64,000 nucleotides of DNA from Acidimicrobiales bacterium AG-414-N20. GTDB lineage: Bacteria; Actinomycetota; Acidimicrobiia; Acidimicrobiales; MedAcidi-G1. Location: NCBI GenBank assembly GCA_003214465.1, contig QCLO01000002.1, positions 62,001-126,000 on the forward strand, in the 5' to 3' direction. The position numbers and the translations under genes are program-made. Each line of letters opens with the position of its first letter. The first letter of the stretch is position 1. Positions 49,580 to 51,952 of this stretch are shown piece by piece. A model generated the notes under the pieces. The model saw only the letters and a program-made list of their open reading frames with translations, ran no database searches and was not told where the DNA came from.

Positions 49580-50688
49580 TTATTAATCTCCTCATAATAA
49601 GGGTAGGGGTCATTATTGGGATCTTGTTGTGGAGGTTCAACTTCGGCGGTTACTAAAGGGTAAAGATCTTTTGAAATATCACGAGGACACTCCCAGTCTA
49701 TTTCTTTTTCAACTCCCGCTATTTGAGCAAAAGGGCGAAGAAAAGTGAAATAAACATATGCTCCACACTTGATACGCTCATCTCGGCTCATGGAAACAAT
49801 ATTCCTGTAATGGGTTTTTTGAATTTGTTTTACTTTTACAACAAAGGCTTCAAATTGGTTATCATCTATCGGTTCGAGTTTTCCATTTACATTTGCAAAA
49901 ATCGCAAATGAACTTAAGTTGTTTAAATAATCTTCTGGTGTTGTAACAGAAGTTCCAAAATCTGTGACAGTCACTTCAACTTTCGGATCCAAAACAAAAA
50001 TTGCTGTCAAGTTTTCATACGGTAGATCTGAAGCAACTTCCGACCACCAGAAATCACTTTTACTAAGTCTGTAGTAATCTCTGACAATCATTGTTCTACC
50101 ATCTGCTAATTTGTACGGCCCGGTATCTCCATGCCCTACACGAGTATCAAAGTAAAGCAAGAAAAGGTAATTGATTAAAGTCGCATTTAACTGCCTTATT
50201 AAAGTTCGTCTATGCTCGTCCACGGAACTTACTGATTGTTCAAAAAATTCTAATTGAGACGATTCCAACACATTTATCCTGTTGTTATTGTCAGCTGAAT
50301 GAAGATACTCGCCGCCTCTATAGGAACGGGACACGCGACCCCAAAAATCTAAGACTGTATGAGCATTTGAAACATCATCTAGAGATTGGTCGATCAAAGA
50401 CATTATGTTTCTTCCTATCAGCCAGAAATTTGCCACCCCCCAAAGAAAAACTGAATTCGCTTGACAAGCCGGTTTTCTTGCTTGCATACCGATCTCTTCT
50501 GGTTGCATAGATCCGGTTATAGTTTTTACCGCTTCGGGATATCGTAAAAAAGCTTCAATAGCCGAAACTGTCACATAAGAAGTAACAGGGATTAGCTGGG
50601 ATGAATAACCTGTTCGTTCAGCCATCAGACGTGCTGAGATCGGATTGATTGACTTTATGTAGTTGTTTACTTCTGAAGTTTCACTCAT
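49576..50688 (-). CDS. Unknown 370-aa protein in the phosphohistidine-domain operon
   Basis: I do not recognise this protein. It is mostly helical, with no signal peptide and only a weak hydrophobic patch (ANSVFLWGVANFWLIGRNIM). A conserved-looking aromatic and polar stretch is DFWGRVSRSYRGGEYLHSADNNNR. The C-terminus is proline/aspartate-rich (VEPPQQDPNNDPYPYYEE). It lies between a free-standing swivel domain (8-nt overlap) and an AttH-like protein (4-nt overlap), so all three should be made together. It could be the enzyme whose product the swivel domain phosphorylates or carries, but nothing in the sequence proves that. Confidence 0.75.
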   Translation of the reverse strand: MSETSEVNNYIKSINPISARLMAERTGYSSQLIPVTSYVTVSAIEAFLRYPEAVKTITGSMQPEEIGMQARKPACQANSVFLWGVANFWLIGRNIMSLIDQSLDDVSNAHTVLDFWGRVSRSYRGGEYLHSADNNNRINVLESSQLEFFEQSVSSVDEHRRTLIRQLNATLINYLFLLYFDTRVGHGDTGPYKLADGRTMIVRDYYRLSKSDFWWSEVASDLPYENLTAIFVLDPKVEVTVTDFGTSVTTPEDYLNNLSSFAIFANVNGKLEPIDDNQFEAFVVKVKQIQKTHYRNIVSMSRDERIKCGAYVYFTFLRPFAQIAGVEKEIDWECPRDISKDLYPLVTAEVEPPQQDPNNDPYPYYEEINK

Positions 50689-51037
50689 TTTGATCAGCTA
50701 AATAAATTGAACCTGTAGTTTCAGTGCCATCAAGGATTATTTCAGTTCCGTTTTCAGGCTCGTTAGAAAATTCGGCTGCTATTAGACCTGGGATTTTAAA
50801 TTCACGGCTAACTATTCCTATATGGCTTCTGATTGTTCCTCCTGTGCAAATCACTCCAGATAGCTCATCAAAAATCGGAGATAAGAAAGTGGCACCTGCA
50901 TCTCTAATCACCGCGATTATCCCATCGACTCCTGTATCCATTAAATCAAGAACGTCTTCGGGGCCTTCCAAACGTTTCCAAATTCCTCTAACAGGTTCGT
51001 AGTCATAGGTTTTTTGCCCGATACCAATCTTTTCCAT
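50681..51037 (-). CDS. Free-standing PEP-utilizing (phosphohistidine swivel) domain protein
   Basis: A 118-aa protein consisting almost only of the mobile domain of PEP synthase/PPDK/Enzyme I-like enzymes. The motif CTGGTIRSHIGIVSREFKIPG contains the phospho-acceptor H72 in the expected TGGxxSHxxIxxRE context. The first ~25 residues (ENIGIGQ-like start, YDYEPVRGIWK) are an extension. The usual ATP-grasp and PEP-binding partner domains are absent here and from both neighbours. It must act with a partner in trans or have a new role. First gene of the operon. Confidence 0.8.
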   Translation of the reverse strand: MEKIGIGQKTYDYEPVRGIWKRLEGPEDVLDLMDTGVDGIIAVIRDAGATFLSPIFDELSGVICTGGTIRSHIGIVSREFKIPGLIAAEFSNEPENGTEIILDGTETTGSIYLADQNE

Positions 51038-51098
51038 TATTTAACAGTACTAGGAAGATCAAGGGAGGTCTGTTACGGAGTAAGCGTAAGATTGAACA

Positions 51099-51494
51099 GT
51101 GGAAAAAATCTTACACCTCTCGGATCGGTGGATAGAAGAGTTAAACAACGCTGCCCAATCCCACAAGGGTTTAGGAAATGCTATAAGTGGAATTGAACTT
51201 GTTGTCGAGTACAGAGTTGTAGATAAGGAATCTGTTAGCTGGCAAATCCAAATAAATAAGGGCGACATAGAAATTACTGCTGATTGTAGACATGAACCTG
51301 ATGTTTGGTTTGAAACTGATAGGCCTACAGCAATTTCCTTATTTGAAGGGAAGATAAATCCTTTGAACGCTGTAATTGAAGGGAATATGGAAATAGGTGG
51401 TGATCCAAGAAGACTTCTTGAATCTTCGGAAATGTTCGAACAACTAGAAGATGTCTTTGAAACAATTCGCAATTCGACGGTTACCGATTCTTAA
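51099..51494 (+). CDS. SCP2-like sterol/lipid-transfer domain protein
   Basis: A 131-aa protein of the SCP2 fold: a helix, five strands and a final helix, with FETDRPTAISLFEGKINPLNAVIEGNMEIGGDP-type features (short segment seen in 108-residue region). It should bind hydrophobic ligands such as acyl-CoA. GTG start at 51099. It is divergent from the swivel-domain operon, with 61 nt between, which must hold both promoters. Confidence 0.72.
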   Translation: MEKILHLSDRWIEELNNAAQSHKGLGNAISGIELVVEYRVVDKESVSWQIQINKGDIEITADCRHEPDVWFETDRPTAISLFEGKINPLNAVIEGNMEIGGDPRRLLESSEMFEQLEDVFETIRNSTVTDS

Positions 51495-51516: not shown

Positions 51517-51952
51517 ATGGGTGAATTATTAGAAATTTGGCTGAAAGAAAATCACGATCAACCAATGGTTCCGCTTACTGAAGCAGAAGTAAGAGCTGGT
51601 GAAGGTATCAAGGATTCTGCAAAAGAGCCTCATGCAGACCGGCAAGTGACTGTTCTTTCTAAAGAAAGCTGGGGAAGCTGCAATAAGTAGCATAGGTGAA
51701 TCCGTTGACCCTAAAGAACGAAGAGCAAATTTTATTGTAAGTGGCGTGACGCTTGAAGAAACTGTAGGAAAAATTCTCCAGATTGGTGAACTCAAAATTG
51801 AAGTAACAGGTGAGACTGTTCCATGCAAACTGATGAATGAGGTTTCTGAAGGGCTCCGTGAAGCTTTGAAGCCATCCTGGCGCGGAGGTATCACGGGATC
51901 TGTAATAAACGATTGCTTAGTTAAAAAGGGAGATCCAGTTAGCTGGTTGTGA
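51517..51952 (+). pseudogene. MOSC-domain protein gene with a frameshift
   Basis: The frame from ATG 51517 encodes MGELLEIWLKENHDQPMV, VRAGEGIKDSAKEPHADRQVT and stops soon after SKESWGSC. Skipping one base in GGGG at 51671-51674 gives SKESWEAAISSIGESVDPKERRANFIVSGV, then LQIGELKIEVTGETVPCKLM, EALKPSWRGGITGSVIN and a stop at 51950-51952. Together the parts form a full small MOSC domain (about 145 aa), including its conserved cysteine in VPCKLM. So this is a +1 shift in a short G-run. It may be a real loss, a rare frameshift, or a sequencing error. MOSC proteins carry sulfur for molybdenum or other cofactors. Confidence 0.85.

Follow-up and report, generated by a model that had tools for sequence, protein, structure and literature searches.

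A free-standing phosphohistidine swivel protein is paired with an undescribed protein family on Acidimicrobiales chromosomes and on plasmids

Three overlapping minus-strand ORFs (51037-48647) in the window, i.e. the whole 64,000-nt stretch of DNA analysed here, encode a phosphohistidine swivel protein (SWIV), a 370-aa protein (X370) and a DUF7065/DUF7064 protein. The pairing of SWIV with X370 is real: the two are encoded together across genomes, occur fused to one another and, in other lineages, lie in one operon with the gene for an ATP-grasp protein, and SWIV retains an intact histidine motif. Judged by sequence and predicted structure, X370 is an undescribed protein family. We consider it probable that the two constitute a swivel-based small-molecule phosphotransferase with an undescribed acceptor protein, of which they would form the two halves; given the PPDK-like operons and the Hpe-like gene set on two Rhodococcus plasmids described below, this would most likely be a small-molecule dikinase of a variant type whose acceptor domain is new. 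The pair probably phosphorylates a small-molecule substrate of catabolism.

The ORF coordinates agree with the operon of the initial annotation, X370 overlapping SWIV by 8 nt and the 310-aa ORF overlapping X370 by 4 nt, with an SCP2-like gene divergent from SWIV (Table 1). The third gene had been called AttH/CrtC-like, and its product indeed matches DUF7064 (2e-17; 64 bits, cut-off 24.7) and DUF7065 (2e-15; 58 bits, cut-off 27), a domain-level likeness to CrtC/AttH/DUF7064-DUF7065 proteins that does not imply hydratase activity. By X370, the nearest named relatives are MedAcidi-G1 and other marine Acidimicrobiales-type MAGs. Since the operon is kept in five named marine MAGs, where X370 is 83-93% identical, and X370 occurs far beyond them, the trio does not represent chance ORFs. 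None of the three proteins matched an anti-phage defence profile in PADLOC, and a search of openly accessible literature found no paper on the trio.

Table 1 Features of the SWIV locus in the window
Feature	Positions	Strand	Assignment
SWIV, free-standing PEP-utilisers mobile (phosphohistidine swivel) domain, 118 aa	50681-51037	-	PF00391, His72
X370, family undescribed, 370 aa	49576-50688	-	putative acceptor-substrate or catalytic partner of SWIV
DUF7065/DUF7064 protein (CrtC/AttH-like), 310 aa	48647-49579	-	PF23212 + PF23213
SCP2-like protein, 131 aa, divergent from SWIV	51099-51494	+	PF02036, E 5e-8
SWIV/SCP2 divergent intergenic region, 61 bp	51038-51098	.	promoter region by position only

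SWIV is what it had been taken for, a swivel domain standing on its own: it matches PF00391 (E 2.7e-8; 33.7 bits against a curated cut-off of 23.1) with no second domain, and its phospho-acceptor, His72 in GGTIRSHIGIVSRE, lies at the canonical position. Alignment of 32 relatives indicated S71, H72, I75 and R78 to be invariant, the Ser-His pair and the Arg motif around His72 being kept in all of them down to ~30% identity. The AF2 model (pLDDT 88.6) adopts the swivelling beta/beta/alpha fold, and Foldseek matched it to the swivel of RPH (E 5.6e-7), to pyruvate kinase (TM up to 0.80) and to PPDK. A domain scan detected no PEP/pyruvate-binding barrel (PF02896) in either SWIV or X370. We infer that SWIV is phosphorylated on His72, and in the proposed mechanism it would carry the phosphate there. 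That SWIV should instead have lost phosphotransfer and serve, with its swivel fold retained, as a structural or regulatory subunit of X370 or of the DUF7064 protein would fit the third of X370 genomes in which no ATP-grasp donor was found, and the two genomes that have SWIV and DUF7064 without X370; yet a structural role does not require the invariance of His72 and the S-H...R motif, and we regard it as very improbable.

X370 matched no Pfam or NCBIfam family and its relatives matched none consistently, and X370 gave no significant PDB match by sequence, in keeping with its first description as unrecognised. The AF2 model is confident (pLDDT 91.7, pTM 0.91), and a Foldseek search of the PDB returned no fold match (best E 0.6); START-domain-like matches were weak (E > 1) and were set aside. 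Among 48 X370 sequences with identities down to 22%, Y38, F176, R183, G190, P191, R203, W215, P251 and Y313 are invariant and D181 and D188 nearly so. X370 was also considered as a split-off rifampin-type substrate domain, and this was rejected: hhalign gave a probability of 0.1% against four HpeH-like fused swivel proteins of the same genome. Since neither similarity to an RPH/HpeH-type domain nor a fold match is available, it is by analogy only that we propose X370 as the putative acceptor domain.

The same conserved residues, R183 and R203 together with D181 and D188, could belong to a kinase that loads SWIV with phosphate, to a phosphatase that unloads it, or to a transphosphorylase, formed by SWIV and X370, acting between two small molecules. 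None of these would need an ATP-grasp protein, in line with the 11 X370 genomes without detectable PPDK_N, and HpeH alone is able to move phosphate from 4-phosphoacetophenone to acetovanillone (PMC12167813). However, no nucleotide-binding motif or kinase fold was recognised in X370, and type B operons (see below) do encode an ATP-grasp protein, rendering this alternative decidedly unlikely.

The pairing was assessed in 248 genomes of the order, using a single-sequence search for X370 and a profile search (E <= 1e-20) for SWIV. X370 was found in 35 genomes and SWIV in 37; SWIV was present in 35/35 genomes with X370 as compared to 2/213 without (Fisher p = 1e-40 by genome and 3e-24 by genus, values that are not true probabilities as the genomes are related). 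The two SWIV-only genomes (G014 and G068) belong to one genus and keep SWIV, DUF7064 and SCP2 with no X370 nearby, which counts against the phosphotransferase reading. With regard to position, 52 of 54 X370 genes are either part of a fusion with SWIV or no more than 1.25 kb away from it; of the remaining two, one is on a contig that begins within X370 and the other lies at a distance of 6.4 kb from SWIV. Over 31 loci, the pairwise identities of SWIV are correlated with those of X370 (r = 0.97), to which shared descent contributes. Phylum-wide, X370 was detected in 6 of 396 genomes, and a search of one other actinobacterial class yielded no further member.

In the window's own family the wider neighbourhood (SDH, MDH, ABC transporters) is kept as well, as would be expected if the trio were held together by general synteny only. 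For SWIV and X370, general synteny fails as an explanation, because the orientation of the pair and its other neighbours differ between loci: the pair persists amid different neighbours (L047, L056, L065-L077), on plasmids and as fusions, and we give this account next to no credence. For the SCP2 gene general synteny may suffice; it is a loosely linked member of the SWIV neighbourhood, lying divergently next to SWIV in many families, including one (L047) where wider synteny is lost. As to the conserved gene set that had been predicted, SWIV with X370 in 35/35 genomes and DUF7064 at most loci of the window's type bear the prediction out, but DUF7064 is not obligate. At L096 and L097, DUF7064 adjoins SWIV and X370 is missing. 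In one further family (L065-L071) a Zn-alcohol dehydrogenase gene is flanked by X370 and SWIV, and genes for a luciferase-like oxidoreductase, a ChsH2-type OB-fold protein and thiolases lie nearby.

Beyond chromosomes, X370 was present in 9 of 72,556 plasmid records, from Rhodococcus, Novosphingobium, Paraburkholderia and Methylibium (Actinomycetota and Pseudomonadota). All nine also carry SWIV, found by tblastn on eight and by profile on the ninth (Methylibium PM1). Rhodococcus oxybenzonivorans pRB98 and R. pyridinivorans pA encode single proteins of 542 and 577 aa with N-terminal SWIV followed by X370, and R. opacus pROB02 a 793-aa protein composed of SWIV, X370 and c37, a winged-helix-like domain. 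On pROB02 (L091) the fused gene lies near a tyrosine-phosphatase-family gene and two small-molecule kinase-family genes (phosphotransferase, ecdysteroid 22-kinase family). The Methylibium petroleiphilum PM1 plasmid RPME01 (L093) carries X370, a 153-aa protein of no known identity, SWIV and c37, with a mutase cluster (B12-binding protein, AMP-binding protein, MeaB, methylmalonyl-CoA mutase family) a few kb downstream of the pair.

Two arrangements of the pair were distinguished. Type A, that of the window, comprises a divergent SCP2 gene and SWIV-X370-DUF7064; type B (L073-L077, L086, L095) combines SWIV, X370 and c37 with a PPDK-like protein that bears an ATP-grasp domain and a swivel of its own. 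On Rhodococcus sp. 008 pR8L1, X370-SWIV-c37-DUF7065-PPDK-like form one gene run. Since the type B PPDK-like proteins scanned gave no PF02896 match, and those checked lack the CGExxGDP motif, they should not make PEP. At loci of the pR8L1 type, this same-operon ATP-grasp protein, a PPDK derivative devoid of a recognisable pyruvate barrel, would be the donor of the phosphate, and the phosphorylated product would probably enter a catabolic pathway. The DUF7064 and SCP2 proteins may have a part in handling the substrate or in its further conversion. The substrate may be hydrophobic, as the initial annotation had it, but only the SCP2 and CrtC/AttH-like genes point that way. Use of the swivel in trans, also put forward there, was right in outline, given the fusions and the ATP-grasp operons elsewhere, but not in its obligatory three-component form.

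The operons of pA and pRB98 contain SWIV, X370, AMP-binding, c37 and PPDK-like genes, followed by genes for a biotin carrier, a biotin carboxylase, a carboxyltransferase, an OB-fold protein, a thiolase and a tyrosine-phosphatase-family protein. In the Hpe pathway, HpeHI acts as kinase, HpeCBA carboxylates only the phosphorylated ketone, HpeD is a phosphatase and HpeE an acyl-CoA synthetase (PMC9618137); HpeHI itself comprises an ATP-grasp subunit and a RIF-binding/swivel subunit (PMC12167813). By analogy, the gene set of the two Rhodococcus plasmids would match these functions (biotin carboxylase, phosphatase, acyl-CoA synthetase, thiolase), with SWIV, X370 and the PPDK-like protein in the kinase place of HpeHI. 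The window's own locus is without such pathway genes.

The likeness to known dikinases has limits. HpeHI, PpsAB (phenylphosphate synthase), CreHI and RPH resemble SWIV/X370 in joining a phosphohistidine swivel to a substrate-accepting partner, the role proposed for X370, and the ATP-grasp protein acts in trans in HpeHI, PpsAB and CreHI as it would at type B loci. In these systems, however, the swivel is C-terminal, whereas SWIV is free-standing or N-terminal, and at the sequence level X370 does not resemble the acceptor domain of the RPH/HpeH type. Moreover, unlike in HpeHI, PpsAB and CreHI, the ATP-grasp protein here is PPDK-derived and equipped with a swivel, and it is absent from a good many genomes, the window's among them. 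As a RIF-binding-type acceptor domain was recognised in X370 neither by hhalign nor in the PDB (which includes RPH), and a separate ATP-grasp subunit is encoded alongside only at type B loci and was not found in the window's own, 85%-complete genome, we do not place SWIV/X370 in the HpeH/PpsA family. Pyruvate phosphate dikinase and PEP synthase share the swivel fold and His motif with SWIV, and the type B ATP-grasp protein derives from PPDK; in contrast to these enzymes, SWIV and X370 lack the pyruvate/PEP barrel, and the type B proteins examined lack PF02896 and CGExxGDP.

No PPDK_N ATP-grasp was found in the window's genome, a 1.8-Mb draft that is 85% complete, nor in 10 others of the 35 X370 genomes, several of them 95-98% complete and one a single contig, a finding that speaks against the phosphotransferase reading. 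An ATP-grasp partner, which the initial annotation suggested looking for, does not accompany the trio throughout: PPDK_N is present in 24/35 X370 genomes vs 160/213 without X370 (p = 0.41), and this count over the 248 genomes rules it out as a constant companion. In the window's lineage the donor would be encoded elsewhere or be of another kind. X370 might even be a new enzyme fold which, with the free swivel, works without known ATP-grasp or PEP-binding enzymes in the same cell; this would amount to a new way to charge or use a phosphohistidine carrier, and we consider it unlikely.

A PEP-barrel protein was detected in 10 of the 11 X370 genomes without PPDK_N; the exception is a draft genome (G201) in which SWIV is the only swivel protein and both PF02896 and PPDK_N are missing, so that a PEP-barrel protein was discarded as universal donor. 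In the window's genome, a gene at C17:7860-9134 (L002), downstream of an apparent glycyl-tRNA synthetase gene, encodes a swivel and a PEP barrel with CGEHGGDP and no ATP-grasp, corresponding to the C-terminal half of PPDK. The genome also encodes four further fused swivel proteins of ~550-590 aa and the HpeH/RPH-acceptor type (L001, L003, L004 and L005, at C2:22353, C2:12559, C2:127704 and C11:19733), with no PPDK_N found there.

The PPDK-like protein of the operon already contains a swivel, and why a phosphotransferase of the proposed kind should need another is not easily explained. A free second swivel would make sense if SWIV were an HPr-like soluble phosphocarrier in a relay, loaded by another swivel enzyme and passing its phosphate on at X370; the loader would be the operonic ATP-grasp and swivel protein or, where PPDK_N is absent, a PEP-barrel and swivel protein such as that on contig C17 of the same genome. 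The 10 of 11 genomes with a PEP-barrel protein fit this idea, whereas G201 does not, and we know of no precedent for swivel-to-swivel transfer. The idea of a free phosphohistidine carrier is shared with PTS enzyme I and HPr, and enzyme I has a swivel domain too; unlike these, the SWIV/X370 pair has no PEP barrel and no HPr match, and no sugar transporter was seen adjoining it. PTS enzyme I alone phosphorylates rifampicin in vitro (PMC13099321), which we count in favour of a relay. On balance, a relay appears rather unlikely, and a small-molecule phosphotransferase formed by SWIV and X370 is the reading we prefer.

Known swivel-domain phosphotransferases use, to our knowledge, either a pyruvate/PEP barrel or a rifampin-type acceptor domain. 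X370 would add a swivel partner unrelated to these, on marine Acidimicrobiales chromosomes and catabolic plasmids alike. If confirmed, this would put a name to an undescribed protein family and suggest that phosphorylation comes early in additional degradation pathways. How the swivel is charged in cells lacking a PPDK-type ATP-grasp would then become a question of its own.

Finally, between the SCP2 and MDH genes, positions 51517-51949 (+) hold a gene, presumably MOSC-like, that is whole (144 aa) in L037-L041 and split over two frames in the window, reflecting either a frameshift or a sequencing error near 51.66-51.69 kb.
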